From a virus, in IMG/VR virus record IMGVR_UViG_3300048026_000700, positions 1 to 24,100 of that record: DNA of 24,100 nt. One strand, given 5' to 3'. The notes beneath the pieces were generated by a model, which was given only the letters and a program-made list of their open reading frames with translations, was not told where the DNA came from and did not search any database. Positions 2 to 5,415 of the stretch are shown piece by piece. Both the position numbers and the translations under genes were made by a program. How positions within the stretch are numbered: position 1 is the first letter of the stretch; each line of letters begins with the position of its first letter.

Positions 2-664
2 AAGAAAAACGCCCTGGCTGTGCTCAGCTCGATAATGAATCATGCGGAGGTTAGCCCTAACCCATGCCGGCAGGTAAAGATCCGACGCGGCCAGAAGGCG
101 CCTATTCAACGTTACACCCCATCTGAACGCGAGACACTCCTGGGCGCTCTGGACGGCGACTATAAAGTGTTCTTTGCCATCCTGTTTGGCTGTGGCTTGC
201 GAACTGGCGAGGCGATGGCGCTGACCTGGGCGGACTATGACGGCGAGCACCTAGACATATCTAAACAGGTCGTTAGGCGGCGCCTGGAAAAGACAACCAA
301 AACGTCAGTGCGCCGCAAGGTATTCGTGCCGCAGTGGGTGAGGGGATATATCAATAGCTTGCCGTCGCGCTTTCCTGGTGACTACCTGTTCCCAAATCAG
401 TATGGCCGGCACCACCAGGACGCCGATGCCTTCAATAACGAATGGGCCCGCATACACAAACGCTGTCGCTTGCCCTATAGAGTCCCATACACCTGCCGAC
501 ACACCAGGGCGGCCGAACTGCTTAGCGTGGGCGCAACCCCAGCCTCTGCGGCCAAACAACTGGGCCATAGCGTTGAGATATTTTTGCGGACCTATGCTGA
601 GTTTTTAGAGGAATATGCAGACACGTCGATGTTTGATACACCCCTACAGCGTAAGCGTGGTTAG
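2..664 (+). CDS. int: Tyrosine recombinase (phage integrase), 5'-truncated by window edge
   Basis: Site-specific recombinase that would insert and excise the phage at a tRNA-Asp attachment site. The frame is open to the left edge, so the N-terminal DNA-binding domain is missing; what remains is the end of the core-binding domain plus the catalytic domain. Numbering residues from the GTG codon at 20, the catalytic set is visible: Arg61 in GLRTGEA, Lys94 in the TKT beta-turn, Arg160 in YTCRHTRAAELL, His183 in KQLGH, and nucleophile Tyr192 in FLRTYAEF. The position that is usually His in the HxxR box is Tyr157. The gene ends 85 bp before the tRNA-derived core at 750-772, the usual arrangement of int next to attP. 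Identity as a tyrosine recombinase is secure. The true start lies outside the window; the GTG at 20 is not a credible start. Confidence 0.95.
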   Translation, partial: KKNALAVLSSIMNHAEVSPNPCRQVKIRRGQKAPIQRYTPSERETLLGALDGDYKVFFAILFGCGLRTGEAMALTWADYDGEHLDISKQVVRRRLEKTTKTSVRRKVFVPQWVRGYINSLPSRFPGDYLFPNQYGRHHQDADAFNNEWARIHKRCRLPYRVPYTCRHTRAAELLSVGATPASAAKQLGHSVEIFLRTYAEFLEEYADTSMFDTPLQRKRG

Positions 665-676
665 GTCACGACAAAT

Positions 677-890
677 CGAGTTTTTAGTTTTGGACTTGCT
701 AAAAAACTCGCTAGTTTTTGGAAGAATGGCTTACCTAAGCGGAAAAAAATGGCGGAGCGGACGGGACTCGAAACCTACCCCCAAAGTTTTATGTGGGCGT
801 ATGTGTAGTGTTTATGCGGTCTGTAGCCTGAAGCGACACATACAAAGCCACGATTCCCCATCAAAAACTCGCTAGAACCTCGCTAATTTT
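677..890. repeat. Repeats flanking the att core (candidate integrase arm sites)
   Basis: The 13-mer AAAAACTCGCTAG occurs at 702-714 and 863-875, one copy on each side of the tRNA-derived core. An inverted copy of its first nine bases (CGAGTTTTT) lies at 677-685, and a partial copy (CTCGCTA plus a T-run) at 879-890. Short repeats on both sides of a core are what integrase arm-binding sites look like. The inverted pair 677-688 / 699-710 could also form a hairpin, and might additionally end int transcription. The arm-site role is inferred from position and repetition only. Confidence 0.6.
750..772 (-). other. attP: attP core: 3' end of a tRNA-Asp gene (partial tRNA)
   Basis: Read on the - strand, these 23 bases are a tRNA 3' end: T-loop TTCGAGT, the 3' side of the T-stem, the acceptor strand CCGCTCC, discriminator G and encoded CCA. 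From memory this matches gammaproteobacterial tRNA-Asp(GTC) 3' ends; E. coli tRNA-Asp differs at one base in the acceptor arm. Further 5' on the - strand, the T-stem partner does not pair and no anticodon arm is present, so this is not a functional tRNA. Such 3'-end copies are the standard attachment cores of tRNA-integrating phages, because they restore the tRNA after insertion. The core sits between int and the early genes, with phage genes on both sides, so attP is favoured over attL or attR. Confidence 0.85.
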
Positions 891-914
891 TTTTAAATTA
901 ATTGATAAAAACAC

Positions 915-943
915 TTGACCTAGTATCGGTAGGCGGTTAATAT
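915..943 (+). promoter_or_regulatory. Promoter/operator unit 1
   Basis: Sigma-70 type promoter: -35 TTGACC (915-920), exactly 17 bp spacer, -10 TAATAT (938-943). It is the first of four related units in the + strand block (others at 1482, 2591 and 3550). All contain TTGACC and a spacer resembling TNGTATCGGTA. The 26 bases at 895-920 recur exactly at 3530-3555, upstream of unit 4. In this copy the right half of the dyad is GGTTA rather than the AGGTCA seen in units 2 and 4, so its operator may be weaker. It drives the gene starting at 969. Confidence 0.85.
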
Positions 944-968
944 GGGTTCATTGATTAAGGAGATAGAT

Positions 969-1451
969 ATGAACAACATTAAAAACCAAGTTAAAGAAGC
1001 CTTTGCACAGCATGACGCCGACGCTATCGCTGACGTGCCTGCCGCTATCGCAGAAGCCCGCGCCCAGTATCGTGAAATGAAAGCGGCTTACTTTGCCCTT
1101 CCCCGCAGTGAGGCTGGCAAGCGACACGACCAAATGAAGGCAATCAAGAGCCTTTTCAATAAGCGATTCATTGAGGATTTTGACTGGGGCGAAGCCGAGC
1201 ACGTTGCCCGATTCATCAAGAACCTGGAAAAGAATCACGAAGCCCGCAACGAGCGAATTGCCGCGAAGTTTGCCAAGGCTGGAATTGAGAGCATCGATGC
1301 CGCCGACTTCCGAGCTGTTTACGGCGAAGCCTTCCAGGGAATGTGGGTCATCGACGGTCACCGCGTCAAGATCGAAATTATTCTGGCTGGTGGCTACAAC
1401 ATTCAACGCCTGCACCAACGAGTGCTGGTCAACGTCAAGGCGGCCGCGTAA
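969..1451 (+). CDS. Conserved phage protein of unknown function (160 aa)
   Basis: First gene of the + strand early block. The ATG at 969 is chosen because AAGGAG sits six bases upstream and promoter unit 1 ends at 943; an in-frame ATG at 942 lies inside the -10 box and cannot be the start. The product is mostly helical and charged (residues 1-110), then has a short beta-like segment ending in AGGYNIQRLH (140-149) followed by a basic valine-rich tail. That C-terminal motif reminds me of a domain in phage and plasmid proteins of unknown function, but I cannot name the family with certainty. There is no signal peptide or membrane segment. It is likely a cytoplasmic early accessory protein. Function unknown. 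Confidence 0.85.
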   Translation: MNNIKNQVKEAFAQHDADAIADVPAAIAEARAQYREMKAAYFALPRSEAGKRHDQMKAIKSLFNKRFIEDFDWGEAEHVARFIKNLEKNHEARNERIAAKFAKAGIESIDAADFRAVYGEAFQGMWVIDGHRVKIEIILAGGYNIQRLHQRVLVNVKAAA

Positions 1452-1481
1452 GCGGCCCCAGCTAAACGGTAATATTAACAC

Positions 1482-1510
1482 TTGACCTTGTATCGGTAAT
1501 AGGTCATAAT
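1482..1510 (+). promoter_or_regulatory. Promoter/operator unit 2
   Basis: -35 TTGACC (1482-1487), 17 bp spacer, -10 CATAAT (1505-1510). TGACCT (1483-1488) and AGGTCA (1501-1506) form an inverted repeat with a 12-bp centre that is itself partly symmetric (about 18 of 24 positions pair). The palindrome covers the space between the -35 and -10 boxes, where a bound repressor would block RNA polymerase. The 31 bases at 1478-1508 are identical to 3546-3576 in unit 4. It drives the gene at 1536. Confidence 0.85.
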
Positions 1511-1535
1511 GTGTTCATCAACTAGGGAGATAGAT

Positions 1536-1766
1536 ATGAAAACAATATTCGACAACAGCAACCGAATGGTTACCGTGACTTACGAAACCAATCGCGGCGG
1601 TATCAAAGAGGTGAGCGGCGTCATCGTTGAACGACCCGTATTTGGTGACACCTCTGCGCCTTACCGCATCCGCACCAAAGACCGTGATGTTTGGGTGAAG
1701 CTCGGCGGTGAGGTCGGCACGATAGATCGCCGTCTCGGTTACACCATCCGACTCGTTGACGCGTAA
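1536..1766 (+). CDS. Small hypothetical protein (76 aa)
   Basis: Starts at ATG 1536 behind a GGGAGA ribosome site; an in-frame ATG at 1509 overlaps the -10 box of promoter unit 2 and is rejected. The protein is beta-rich with alternating polar and hydrophobic residues (VTVTYETN near the start, YRIRTKD and VWVKLGG in the middle, YTIRLVDA at the end), which suggests a small beta-barrel or sandwich. No family is recognised. It is the first gene of the unit-2 block, probably co-transcribed with those at 1795, 2046 and 2268. The stop lies inside GCGTAAGCGGCCC, a 13-mer that also ends the previous gene at 1446-1458. Confidence 0.8.
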   Translation: MKTIFDNSNRMVTVTYETNRGGIKEVSGVIVERPVFGDTSAPYRIRTKDRDVWVKLGGEVGTIDRRLGYTIRLVDA

Positions 1767-1794
1767 GCGGCCCAACCAACCAAGGAGATCAAAA

Positions 1795-2031
1795 ATGTTT
1801 AACGAAAATTTCAACGCAAAACGTGAAGGCCGATATATTGGATTCGCGGTCGCCTATGACCTGGATGAGCTTGACGCTGTTTTCATTCCCGCGGCATTTG
1901 AAGTGGCCGCCAGGAAAGCAGAAATGGAGCTCGATGAATTTTTGGATGTTGTCTTTAACCCAAAGCGTCCAATGATCGAAATGATGGATTACCTGGCTGA
2001 GGCAATCGGCCAGGCACAACAAGCGGCATAG
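1795..2031 (+). CDS. Small acidic hypothetical protein (78 aa)
   Basis: ATG at 1795 follows AAGGAGATCAAAA, a clear ribosome site; upstream in-frame codons overlap the previous gene and lack one. The product is acidic and mostly helical, with a hydrophobic patch (YIGFAVAYDLDELDAVFIP) and then a helix rich in Glu, Met and Ala, ending in GQAQQAA. It has no membrane segment or enzyme motif. Small acidic early phage proteins are often inhibitors or DNA mimics, but nothing here proves such a role. It belongs to the unit-2 block, 28 bp after the previous stop. Confidence 0.8.
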   Translation: MFNENFNAKREGRYIGFAVAYDLDELDAVFIPAAFEVAARKAEMELDEFLDVVFNPKRPMIEMMDYLAEAIGQAQQAA

Positions 2032-2045
2032 CCAGGGAGATAGAA

Positions 2046-2234
2046 ATGTCAGACCAGAAGCATGAGGCATATTTAATATTCGCGACCCCAGCGGATAGCT
2101 GGACTGAGACTATGGCGATGGCCACAACATGGGATGACGCCCAAGAGCGCGTCTTTTGGTTTGGCGAAAATGGCTATGAGTCTGTCCGAGTAATTCACCC
2201 TAGCGGCAGAAAAGAAAAAGTCGGATGGGTGTAA
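2046..2234 (+). CDS. Small hypothetical protein (62 aa)
   Basis: ATG at 2046 with GGGAGATAGAA just upstream, 14 bp after the previous gene. The sequence reads as a compact alpha/beta fold: a beta-strand (EAYLIFATP), a helix (TWDDAQERVFWF) and a beta-hairpin (ESVRVIHPSGRKEKVGW). It resembles many small phage proteins with a strand-helix-hairpin pattern, but I do not recognise a named family. No cysteines, signal or membrane segment. It is a member of the unit-2 transcription block. Coding is supported by the ribosome site and tight packing. Confidence 0.75.
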   Translation: MSDQKHEAYLIFATPADSWTETMAMATTWDDAQERVFWFGENGYESVRVIHPSGRKEKVGWV

Positions 2235-2267
2235 ACGCCGCGACCGCGGCATAACCAGGAGAATGTA

Positions 2268-2573
2268 ATGGACTACAAAATACTAAACGCCGAAGAATTC
2301 GATGCTGAGATTGCCAAAAATACTGGCTTCAAAAGCATGAATGATTTGCTCACCGCTAAAGGGACTTACCGCCCATCATGCGATGTCGATAACCCTTTTC
2401 ACCTTGAGCTGGCAGATCGGTTTGACCTGGAGATGAAGCGCATGGGCCTGGAGCACCGCGCCTATCGTTACGGCCGGTCAATGTCCGCAGTTGACAAAAT
2501 GATCAGAGCTGACAAGCGCATTAAGGCCAGGGAGGCAAACTCAATTCGCCGGCTCCTGGCTGGTCGCCACTAA
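2268..2573 (+). CDS. Hypothetical protein (101 aa)
   Basis: ATG at 2268 follows CAGGAGAATGTA. The protein is helical and charged: an acidic N-terminal third (EEFDAEIAKN), a middle with a short PSCDVDNPFHLELADRF stretch, and a strongly basic C-terminus (KMIRADKRIKAREANSIRRLLAGRH) that could contact nucleic acid. It ends just before promoter unit 3, so it closes the unit-2 block. No recognised domain; a nucleic-acid-binding role is only a guess from charge. A perfect 6-bp inverted repeat (GCCGCG-AC-CGCGGC, 2237-2250) lies between the previous gene and this one. Confidence 0.78.
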   Translation: MDYKILNAEEFDAEIAKNTGFKSMNDLLTAKGTYRPSCDVDNPFHLELADRFDLEMKRMGLEHRAYRYGRSMSAVDKMIRADKRIKAREANSIRRLLAGRH

Positions 2574-2590
2574 ATTGGTAATATTAACAG

Positions 2591-2619
2591 TTGACCTAGT
2601 AGCGATATTGGGTCATAAT
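2591..2619 (+). promoter_or_regulatory. Promoter/operator unit 3
   Basis: -35 TTGACC (2591-2596), 17 bp spacer, -10 CATAAT (2614-2619). It is the most diverged copy in the spacer (TAGTAGCGATATTGGGT) but keeps the dyad ends TGACC and GGTCA. The upstream 13-mer GGTAATATTAACA (2577-2589) is shared with unit 2 (1468-1480), so units 2 and 3 form one subtype and units 1 and 4 another. It drives genes from 2664 onward. Confidence 0.82.
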
Positions 2620-2663
2620 GTCTCTGTTGTTTGAGTGAAGTCAATTTTAACCAGGAGAACGTG

Positions 2664-2900
2664 ATGGCGAGCAAGCAAAAACTCATTGATGCGGTGGCGG
2701 CCCTTGGCGGCGCCATCGACTGGGGTGTCTCTTTCATCGAGCGAGGCGAAAAGCACATCTGCATCGACGCGCCGGCCGGCATGGTCTGGTCTGCAAACGG
2801 GGCGCCCTGCCTAGTCCAGTCCTGGTACAGCGGAACCGCCAGTGATTTTTATGATGACGTGTTAGCCGACCTGGCTGACGGTCTAAACCAGGGAGAGTGA
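2664..2900 (+). CDS. Small hypothetical protein (78 aa)
   Basis: First gene after promoter unit 3. ATG 2664 is preferred because AGGAG lies six bases upstream; the GTG at 2661 is a possible alternative, and the TTG at 2631 lies too close to the promoter. The protein starts with a basic helix (MASKQKLIDAVAALGG), then an aromatic-rich middle with Cys34 and Cys49, and an acidic helical end (SDFYDDVLADLADGL). I do not recognise the family. The ribosome site of the next gene is embedded in its last codons, so the two are probably translated together. Confidence 0.8.
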   Translation: MASKQKLIDAVAALGGAIDWGVSFIERGEKHICIDAPAGMVWSANGAPCLVQSWYSGTASDFYDDVLADLADGLNQGE

Positions 2901-2901
2901 A

Positions 2902-3150
2902 ATGATCGATAAAGCAATTAAAGGCAATTATTACTGGACTCATCGCGGAAGCCACAGGCGATATTTTCCTGGCGCCGAAGTCATCAAGGTGTTTGCAAAA
3001 ACAGGCGGCAAAGAATTCCCGCTGTGCACTGAGCGCCAGGGCGAGATGGCCCACCCGACCAGCACCGGTTCTTTGTTTGAAACTTATGAAGCGGCTGTTG
3101 AATACGGCGAGCTCCAAAAAAGACTTAGTGAGGAGAATAAAAATGGTTGA
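2902..3150 (+). CDS. Small hypothetical protein (82 aa)
   Basis: ATG 2902 begins one base after the previous stop, with GGGAGAGTGAA as ribosome site. The product is basic at its N-terminus (aromatic and His/Arg-rich, YYWTHRGSHRRYF), has a central segment with one Cys, and ends in an acidic helix (YEAAVEYGELQKRLSEENK). No known domain. Its last eight bases overlap the next gene. It sits in a four-gene translationally coupled run (2664-3525), suggesting that these proteins are made together. Confidence 0.78.
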   Translation: MIDKAIKGNYYWTHRGSHRRYFPGAEVIKVFAKTGGKEFPLCTERQGEMAHPTSTGSLFETYEAAVEYGELQKRLSEENKNG

Positions 3151-3361
3151 AATAATTGTTGGATTAGCGTTATTGCCCGTGGCCATCGTGGTTGCGTTTT
3201 ACCTAGGCGCGCTCGCAATCGGCGCGGCCTGGATTCTTGGCGGGCTCATCCTTTTGTTGTGCGGCATTTTGCTTGCAATTGAAGGCATCAACCCAGGTGG
3301 ATTTATTTGCATGTTATTCGGTGGCGCCTGGTGCGCTTATAGTTGGGGAGTAGTGAAGTGA
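3143..3361 (+). CDS. Small integral membrane protein (72 aa)
   Basis: ATG 3143 follows AGGAGAATAAAA; it overlaps the previous gene by 8 bp and the next by 4 bp. Nearly the whole protein is hydrophobic: segments at about residues 3-22 and 25-47 are clear transmembrane helices, with a third weaker one near 53-70 rich in Gly, Trp and Cys. The charged residues are mostly at the ends. Small phage membrane proteins of this shape include superinfection-exclusion proteins and holins. A holin is less likely because no lysis enzyme is adjacent and the gene sits in the early block. Function unknown. Confidence 0.8.
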   Translation: MVEIIVGLALLPVAIVVAFYLGALAIGAAWILGGLILLLCGILLAIEGINPGGFICMLFGGAWCAYSWGVVK

Positions 3362-3525
3362 CAGATGAAATTAACAAAGCGGCCCAGGCGCTCAGCCTAT
3401 CCAGGACAGAGCAAACGCTGGAGTGCCAGGAGTGCGGCAAAGAGTTTAAAGCCAGGGACGTGCGGGCCCGCTTCTGCACCGATCGATGCCGGCAGATTGT
3501 GCGGCGCCGAAACGCCAAAAAATAA
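3358..3525 (+). CDS. Small zinc-finger protein (55 aa)
   Basis: The GTG at 3358 is chosen: GGGGAG lies seven bases upstream and the GTGA overlaps the previous stop (TGA 3359-3361), a classic coupling signal. The protein has a helical N-terminus, then a zinc-ribbon-like set of four cysteines: CQEC, then FCTDRC, followed by a very basic tail (RQIVRRRNAKK). This CxxC...CxxxC pattern with an arginine tail is typical of small nucleic-acid-binding zinc fingers found in phages and in bacterial regulators. It is the last gene before promoter unit 4, so it could be a candidate for contacting the shared operator, although only the basic tail supports that. Confidence 0.78.
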   Translation: MTDEINKAAQALSLSRTEQTLECQECGKEFKARDVRARFCTDRCRQIVRRRNAKK

Positions 3526-3549
3526 TTTGAAATTAATTGATAAAAACAC

Positions 3550-3578
3550 TTGACCTTGTATCGGTAATAGGTCATAGT
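3550..3578 (+). promoter_or_regulatory. Promoter/operator unit 4
   Basis: -35 TTGACC (3550-3555), 17 bp spacer, -10 CATAGT (3573-3578). It carries the same TGACCT/AGGTCA dyad as unit 2. Bases 3546-3576 are identical to 1478-1508, and 3530-3555 are identical to 895-920, so this copy looks like a mosaic of units 1 and 2. It drives the gene at 3613. Confidence 0.85.
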
Positions 3579-3612: not shown

Positions 3613-4089
3613 ATGGCAAAGCAAATGAGTGAAAACGCAAGAGCGGCAAAGATGGTGCGCCAGGAGCTAAAGGCTCGCGGCATCAAGGGCCGCGTAACGA
3701 GCCGTCAGTACAGCATGGGCTCAAGTATGGACGTGGTTATTCTGGAGGATGTGAACCCAGAAATTTATGAGTCGGTTAGAGAGTACGCACGTCAGTTTCA
3801 GTATGGTCACTTTGACGGTATGCAGGACCTGTATGAGTACAGCAACAGCCGCGATGACATCCCCCAGGTAAAGCACGTTTTTACCAGCATTGAGTACAGC
3901 GATGAGCTCAAGCAAAGGGTTTGGAATTACATTCGCAACGTGTACGCAAATATGGAAGATGCGCCAGAACTGCTAGAAGAGTCTTATAACTTCTACAGCA
4001 AGCACTGGGGCGCCAGCGCCATTGGCCTGGTCAACCGTATTTTGTTTGATTCTAATGATGTCGCCTGGAATGGAGGTCTCCAGGCGTGA
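3613..4089 (+). CDS. LPD29-like domain protein (158 aa)
   Basis: ATG 3613 follows GGGAGAGTAAAA under promoter unit 4. The N-terminal 80 residues match my memory of the large polyvalent protein-associated domain 29: a basic helix (RAAKMVRQELKARG), a Ser/Gly-rich turn (YSMGSSMDV, 33-41), a beta-strand, then the hallmark FDGMQDLYEY (67-76). In other phages and conjugative elements this domain is attached to large injected proteins or stands alone in early regions; its activity is unknown to me. The C-terminal half is helical and aromatic-rich, with no named motif. A cytoplasmic early accessory or counter-defence role is possible but not shown. Confidence 0.8.
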   Translation: MAKQMSENARAAKMVRQELKARGIKGRVTSRQYSMGSSMDVVILEDVNPEIYESVREYARQFQYGHFDGMQDLYEYSNSRDDIPQVKHVFTSIEYSDELKQRVWNYIRNVYANMEDAPELLEESYNFYSKHWGASAIGLVNRILFDSNDVAWNGGLQA

Positions 4090-4111: not shown

Positions 4112-4270
4112 ATGGAATTCGTTATCTTTCTTTACTGCCTGGTGGCCGCTGTCGGCGCTTACCAGATCCTGGTGCCTTACCAGTACCTGCCCGCTTACAC
4201 TCCTGAAGAGTTAGAGCGTATTGCTTACTGGGATGACATCATCGCCAACTCAAGCTCAGAGGATAGCTAG
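4112..4270 (+). CDS. Small single-pass membrane protein (52 aa)
   Basis: ATG 4112 follows CGGAGG with five bases between; the in-frame ATG at 4022 is inside the previous gene and has no ribosome site. Residues 2-20 form a hydrophobic helix (FVIFLYCLVAAVGAYQILV), followed by a Pro/Tyr-rich linker and an acidic C-terminus ending SSSEDS. It would sit in the inner membrane with a short soluble tail. The stop codon shares the palindrome CTAG (4267-4270) with the stop of the convergent kinase gene. Coding is likely but modest because of its size. Confidence 0.68.
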   Translation: MEFVIFLYCLVAAVGAYQILVPYQYLPAYTPEELERIAYWDDIIANSSSEDS

Positions 4271-5415
4271 ATAGTCAAACCTGGCACCGCGTCCAGGATA
4301 CCGCTATTCATTAGGACCGGCTTCAGGCCCTTCGCGGGTACTTCCGGTCCGTTTGCTACCTGGGATATTCCGTCAAATAAACCGTTTTGATTTGACTTCA
4401 AGACGCCAAACGTGTCGATAGCGCCCTGGGCGTCTTTATTGAATATGTCAACGGGGATGTGTCGCCCCGTACCTGCTGACCGTAAAAGCATTCGCTTACC
4501 GGCCTCTTCCGCTGAAACATCCATATTTAATAGCTGAACGTCATAACCCTTCGCCCTGAGCTGTTCAGCCGTCTTTAAGACATTATCGGGGTTTGACCCT
4601 ATCCGCGGTATCACTAGGTTGTAACGGTCCCTCATGAGCTCCTCCTGGAGCTGTTCCGTCATTACTTTGGACTGCGGATGTACCGCATTGGCGCCCATCC
4701 CGTCAGCAAATCCTGGAAGCATCTTTTTAGCCTCATCAGGATCAACAATGGCCGCGTTGTATTGCCTGGCTATTGGATTGGCCACAGAGCTCTTTCCTGC
4801 CGCCGCCGCCCCCGTTACCAGGATCGCCCTGGGCTTTTCACCTTTAGCCACCGGCTTAGCGGCGCCCTCTAGGCCATCATCCGCCCAGCCTAGTCTGGTG
4901 GCGCCCTGGTAAAAATCTTCCTGGAGCTTTGGCCTGTTGGCGATTTGGTCCACCGGCAATGGCGCGTAGTCACTGCTGGTAACAATGCTCTCGCGATGCT
5001 TTACCAGGGGAGTGCCTGCGGCCTCTCTGAAGCTTTTGCCCTCGTTATCGAACATGTGCCGCATTTCATCTTTCATGTGCTGGGCGGGGTCTGGGCTCTG
5101 ATACCAGCGGTTCATTGTCCCGATCTTATCCAGCGCCTGGCCTGCAACCTTGGCCGGCCCTACTGGCACACCCACGTCCAGGGCGGCGCCTGCGGCCTGT
5201 CCTGGCGACATGGTGCCGTGATACGCAAAGTTATTAAGCGCATCATCCAGGCTGTTGGGGTACACCCAGCTCGCTATAGAGCCGTCCACGGCCCTCTCGC
5301 CTGCATTAAGGGCTTCGGCCACCTTTGCCATCCACGGGTGCCTGGGGCCCATTACGGAGCTCTCAGGGGCCCTTGCCTTTGGTTTGTTGCTTGCCGCCGC
5401 GTCTAGGATACCCAT
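4267..5415 (-). CDS. Zeta-toxin-like kinase with N-terminal extension (382 aa)
   Basis: Last gene of the late operon. The C-terminal half looks like the zeta-toxin kinase fold: Walker A GAAAAGKS (202-209), then IVDPDEAKKMLPGF (223-236) at the position of zeta's catalytic Asp region, then EELMRDRYNLVI, a KGYDVQLL strand (290-297), and an Arg-rich lid (Arg308, Arg312, Arg318). Classical zeta toxins phosphorylate UDP-N-acetylglucosamine and are blocked by an epsilon antitoxin; no epsilon-like gene is visible. The first ~190 residues are Ala/Gly/Pro-rich, not part of the kinase, and resemble phage structural proteins in style. The ATG overlaps the previous stop by one base (TAATG) with no clear ribosome site, so translation probably depends on reinitiation. 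It could be a virion-delivered effector or a lysogeny gene. Confidence 0.82.
   Translation of the reverse strand: MGILDAAASNKPKARAPESSVMGPRHPWMAKVAEALNAGERAVDGSIASWVYPNSLDDALNNFAYHGTMSPGQAAGAALDVGVPVGPAKVAGQALDKIGTMNRWYQSPDPAQHMKDEMRHMFDNEGKSFREAAGTPLVKHRESIVTSSDYAPLPVDQIANRPKLQEDFYQGATRLGWADDGLEGAAKPVAKGEKPRAILVTGAAAAGKSSVANPIARQYNAAIVDPDEAKKMLPGFADGMGANAVHPQSKVMTEQLQEELMRDRYNLVIPRIGSNPDNVLKTAEQLRAKGYDVQLLNMDVSAEEAGKRMLLRSAGTGRHIPVDIFNKDAQGAIDTFGVLKSNQNGLFDGISQVANGPEVPAKGLKPVLMNSGILDAVPGLTI

Follow-up and report, generated by a model that had tools for sequence, protein, structure and literature searches.

Four promoter units with a dyad-symmetric spacer, probably under repressor control, in the accessory-gene block of a podovirus-like temperate phage

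A podovirus-like temperate phage carries four copies of a promoter unit among small accessory genes; the units are real, beyond chance, and probably make up a set of repressor-controlled promoters. We think it fairly likely that they are operator-promoters bound by a dimeric protein, in the first place the phage repressor, which would switch the accessory cassettes together. From the sequence we infer protein binding, repression, a phage origin of the protein, the timing and the use in lysogeny, as follows. Each unit would be a strong sigma-70 promoter of the host type, with an operator for its spacer. The 24-bp dyad TGACCT-nn-TATCGRTA-nn-AGGTCA would be bound by a dimeric protein, which is most likely a repressor of the phage itself, encoded beyond the available sequence; bound there, it would exclude RNA polymerase, so that the four units keep their set of small cassettes off in a lysogen and turn it on directly after infection or on induction. 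The operator copies and a common start sequence would also permit gain and loss of cassettes.

The promoter units and their setting

The 24.1-kb stretch analysed here, referred to as the window, is a whole virus record that ends on the left within the integrase gene int, so the region left of int lies outside it. The features under discussion are listed below.

20 to 664, plus strand: tyrosine integrase, 5' end cut by the record edge (Pfam Phage_integrase, 2.2e-12; phrog_1 integrase, 2.2e-33)
705 to 714, plus strand: integrase arm-type repeat AACTCGCTAG, left arm
750 to 772, minus strand: attP core, an exact 23-bp copy of the tRNA-Asp 3' end, TTCGAGTCCCGTCCGCTCCGCCA
866 to 886, plus strand: integrase arm-type repeats of the right arm, AACTCGCTAG at 866 and an imperfect ACCTCGCTAA at 877
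895 to 943, plus strand: unit 1, with an AT-rich upstream extension, TTGACC-N17-TAATAT and a degenerate dyad (14/24)
969 to 1451, plus strand: gene 1, 160 aa, with the C-terminal motif ILAGGYNIQRLHQRVL
1464 to 1510, plus strand: unit 2, GGTAATATTAACAC, TTGACC-N17-CATAAT; putative operator at 1483 to 1506, TGACCTTGTATCGGTAATAGGTCA, 18/24
1536 to 2573, plus strand: small genes 2 to 5 (76, 78, 62 and 101 aa), with no match in family searches
2032 to 2048, plus strand: best copy of the start-associated sequence, CCAGGGAGATAGAAATG
2573 to 2619, plus strand: unit 3, GGTAATATTAACAG, TTGACC-N17-CATAAT; putative operator at 2592 to 2615, TGACCTAGTAGCGATATTGGGTCA, 18/24
2664 to 3525, plus strand: small genes 6 to 9 (78, 82, 72 and 55 aa, the third membrane-like and the last zinc-finger-like)
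3529 to 3578, plus strand: unit 4, AAATTAATTGATAAAAACAC, TTGACC-N17-CATAGT; putative operator at 3551 to 3574, TGACCTTGTATCGGTAATAGGTCA
3613 to 4089, plus strand: gene 10, 158 aa, with a weak LPD29-like match (Pfam 3.6e-4, below the cut-off)

The integrase and the tRNA-Asp attP show a temperate phage. Its portal is nearest to that of an Octadecabacter phage (42%), and its hosts are probably Pseudomonadota. Of 399 genomes of the phylum, 86 contain an exact match to the attP core, with a tRNA-Asp present at both of the matching loci examined (n=2); the integrase is without a close relative in the viral collection. The right-arm repeats lie about 28 bp upstream of the −35 element of unit 1, which starts directly after the right arm, and the units belong to a rightward run of small genes of unassigned function beside attP. 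This block would therefore come to lie at one edge of the prophage after integration, with the integrase at the other. The capsid, scaffold, portal and tail-region genes are on the opposite strand and meet the block end to end. A 382-aa late-strand gene adjoining the capsid genes (4267-5415, minus strand) has a C-terminal Zeta_toxin-type kinase domain (Pfam 6.6e-24); it is identical in a sister phage, G001, and without a match in a more distant relative, G002.

Four TTGACC promoters with a 17-base spacer had been predicted, and all are present, at 915, 1482, 2591 and 3550, with TAATAT, CATAAT, CATAAT and CATAGT as their respective −10 hexamers. The spacer core that had been described as common to them is borne out as well: with up to three mismatches, the 17-mer TTGACCTWGTATCGGTA occurs at four sites in 24.1 kb, exactly units 1–4, against a mean of 0.07 sites and a maximum of 1 in the shuffled window. 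The significance of the units lies in this common spacer, and plain sigma-70 resemblance is unremarkable, a bare sigma-70 promoter search of the window having returned 6 promoters against 3.9 expected. A weight-matrix scan gave 34–41 bits at the four sites and less than 2 bits in the rest of the window, apart from their opposite-strand readings, and across the window, G001 and G002 it found sites only at promoter units. The upstream extensions differ as predicted, with ATTGATAAAAACAC common to units 1 and 4 and GGTAATATTAACA to units 2 and 3.

Operator symmetry in the window and in related phages

Counted over 24 bases starting at base 2 of each unit, dyad symmetry is 14, 18, 18 and 18 of 24 for units 1–4. 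Units 2, 3 and 4 follow the pattern TGACCT-nn-TAnCGnTA-nn-RGGTCA, which fills the −35/−10 interval exactly. The original prediction had seen the palindromes of units 2 and 4, which hold an identical 24-mer, and had passed over unit 3, which is equally symmetric. Only 9 of some 24,000 24-mers in the window reach 18/24, and three of those are units 2–4; given the local base composition, the probability of mirrored arms around the core by chance is about 0.001 for units 2 and 4 and 0.0045 for unit 3. In unit 1 the right side of the dyad is degenerate and one arm is lost. A mirror-pair analysis of the variable operator positions, done by hand, was judged not significant. Dimeric repressors that act by keeping RNA polymerase off the promoter normally sit between the −35 and −10 elements, and a symmetric site overlapping promoter elements, a general trait of temperate phage operators, is present here. 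To our knowledge, the sequences of the units resemble neither LexA-like nor lambda-CI-like sites.

The dyads of the four units go back to common ancestry, and there are really two observations, one of the window type and one of the G002 type. G002 is about 67–84% identical to the window phage over most aligned late genes and has one site, before its gene 1 homologue (78%), which reads TTGCAT-N17-TATAGT and contains ATAACA-G-TATCGGTA-T-TGTTAT. The core TATCGGTA is the same as in the window; the arms are wholly different, yet mirrored (ATAACA/TGTTAT, P about 0.0014). As far as the arms go, the symmetries in the window and in G002 are independent, and with two independent dyads an operator for a dimeric protein is the best reading. 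Replacement of the arms would also follow from a joint change of the operator and of repressor specificity. The sister phage G001, 95–99% identical, keeps units 3 and 4. Its unit 3 is unchanged, with an identical operator, and its unit 4, TGACCTCGTATCGATAATAGGTCA, has two changes; through one of them the centre becomes TATCGATA, with 20 of 24 positions symmetric instead of 18.

These comparisons bear on a rather unlikely alternative, that the units are promoters, constitutive or early, which were duplicated together with small-gene cassettes and are read by host RNA polymerase on entry, the dyad being a passenger that binds nothing specifically. Upstream extensions and start sequences are common to the units too, so recent copying would explain part of their similarity; the dyad of unit 1 is broken; and relatives of gene 1 in other phages, 27–77% identical, have promoters of their own, which in the distant relatives are plain and sigma-70-like with no similar dyad. 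A passenger, however, would not be expected to acquire a new pair of mirrored arms around the same core, as in G002, or a symmetry-raising change, as in G001, and we continue to favour operator-promoters bound by a dimeric protein.

The original prediction had taken a lack of copies elsewhere as a sign against it, and part of that lack was observed: there are no further units in the extra 7.5 kb of G001, and among 2.9 million viral contigs the exact window-type dyad has no other occurrence. An exact 16-base motif had 6 matches in the viral collection, about the chance number, none with the right arm or with a suitably spaced −10 hexamer; two of the six, read in context, look like unrelated sequence. 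The G002-type dyad pattern matched seven other contigs, none with the promoter arrangement. Among further relatives, G007, with a capsid 69% identical, carries an integrase of its own and none of the units, the contigs L028, L029 and L031 have gene 1 and lack the units, and L072, L074 and L076, relatives of genes 7 and 10, have none either; a genome scan with the capsid protein returned only relatives of 32–44%, too distant for operator comparison.

The predicted regulon stands in so far as repeated dyad promoters precede small accessory genes of a temperate phage; no repressor gene was recognised in the window, in the 7.5 kb beyond its right end (from G001) or in about 10 kb of G002. That result would also suit an operator for a host transcription factor, by which the accessory genes would answer to host physiology and not to lysogeny. 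Many phage repressor sites are shorter than a 24-bp dyad, and the length found here likewise leans that way. We nevertheless regard a host factor as very improbable: the exact site occurs in no other viral contig, and the arms differ between related phages, where a single constant site would be the likelier outcome for a host factor.

Cassettes of small genes

G001 has an extra gene between two start-associated sequences (window 2886-2902) and a second directly after unit 4; cassettes are thus gained and lost at these common sequences. The idea that the copies are recombined would fit both these gains and the mosaic of upstream extensions. It is possible to go further and regard the repeat mainly as a patch for homologous recombination in cassette shuffling, with promoter activity secondary, a reading for which the pairing of extensions (1 with 4, 2 with 3) and the two G001 insertions speak. 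Recombination, however, needs neither a dyad nor an exact 17-bp spacing, and the G001 cassette at 2886-2902 uses the start sequence, not a unit; we give this reading little credence and retain the operator-promoter interpretation. Two contigs of relatives, L051 and L053, start (position 1) at a promoter unit or immediately behind it, as though the assembly had broken at the repeated element, and copies additional to those seen may be missing from them.

Variants of the start-associated sequence CCAGGGAGATAGAAATG end at gene starts, with 10–17 of 17 matches at 9 of the 11 block genes and 4–10 at late genes. Several small genes end in a GC-rich hairpin whose loop holds the stop codon (GGCCGC-RTAA-GCGGCC), as at window 1441-1460, L051 1640-1655, L053 245-258 and 1592-1608, and around L076 4975. 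One of them reads GGCCGC-GTAA-GCGGCC, and the arrangement recurs in G001, G002 and L076; a short terminator-like T run follows only at L053 1592-1608.

The gene 1 family is found in many unrelated phages (L027-L045), with a near-invariant C-terminal ILAGGYNIQRLHQRVL. The AF2 model of gene 1, though a good one (pLDDT 86.6), had no fold match in the PDB, so it offers no clue to what is regulated. In all three phages a 55-aa zinc-finger-like protein (CxxC...CxxxC; window 3358-3525, L053 888-1048) is encoded immediately before a unit, of which it could be a regulator.

Master repressor sites are usually spread over early promoters. The present sites are clustered in one block and not over early promoters (the early region is outside the record), which speaks against our reading. 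A bolder proposal, which we consider improbable, is that the block is a self-standing accessory-gene system of the prophage edge, with mobile cassettes and a regulator of its own that is not the lysis-lysogeny repressor. Each cassette would be bounded by a repressor-readable promoter, the common start sequence and often the stop-codon hairpin, and operator arms would vary between phages around a constant core.

Relation to known phage regulons

Sets of promoters combined with inverted repeats are known from other temperate phages (PMC11373665, PMC10516654), which favours our reading. The nearest analogue is the ESAS/SAS promoter set of cluster K mycobacteriophages; SPBRE/MrpR of SPbeta comes second. 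Adephagia has seven intergenic 46-47-bp ESAS, with −35 and −10 elements spaced 17-18 bp and an inverted repeat, and separate SAS at start codons; their role is stated as unclear (PMC11373665, PMC3203893). The analogy to start-associated sequences in the original prediction is apt (PMC3203893, PMC11373665): in both cases a temperate phage has several intergenic promoter copies with 17-18 bp spacing and an inverted repeat, a separate conserved sequence at start codons, and mostly small genes of unassigned function. The inverted repeats of ESAS are, however, 15-17 bp, whereas here 6-bp arms and a central TATCGRTA all lie within 24 bp, and the host phylum differs. The SAS consensus GGGATAGGAGCCC had 0 matches, at up to two mismatches, before start codons in the window.

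In SPbeta, the SPBRE lies in the promoters of about ten mostly uncharacterised genes and is bound by the master repressor MrpR (PMC10516654). The likeness is in a repeated element in promoters of several mostly uncharacterised genes, for which, in SPbeta, one repressor maintains lysogeny (PMC10516654); the difference is in a 15-bp motif over about ten promoters and a tyrosine-recombinase-like repressor, against four sites in one block. The stoperators of cluster A phages are many sites for one repressor, and the site drifts between related phages with repressor specificity (PMC6550527). Arm replacement between G002 and the window phage resembles such heteroimmune repressor-operator pairs (PMC6550527). 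Stoperators, however, are 13-bp sites, mostly in one orientation and mostly outside promoters, that block elongation (PMC6550527), whereas all four sites described here are 24-bp, symmetric and inside promoters.

The present set is, by these comparisons, alike in layout to ESAS/SAS and SPBRE and a member of neither, since it lacks the SAS consensus, has another repeat geometry and has no recognised repressor in the available sequence. The set is ordinary in kind and new in sequence. If our reading is true, a podovirus-like temperate phage of probable Pseudomonadota would have the ESAS-type layout independently and in unrelated sequence, which would suggest that temperate phages repeatedly reach coordinated regulons for their accessory genes. 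The 24-bp putative operator, with arms that differ around one core, would then provide a handle for finding the repressor and for studying how its specificity diverges.
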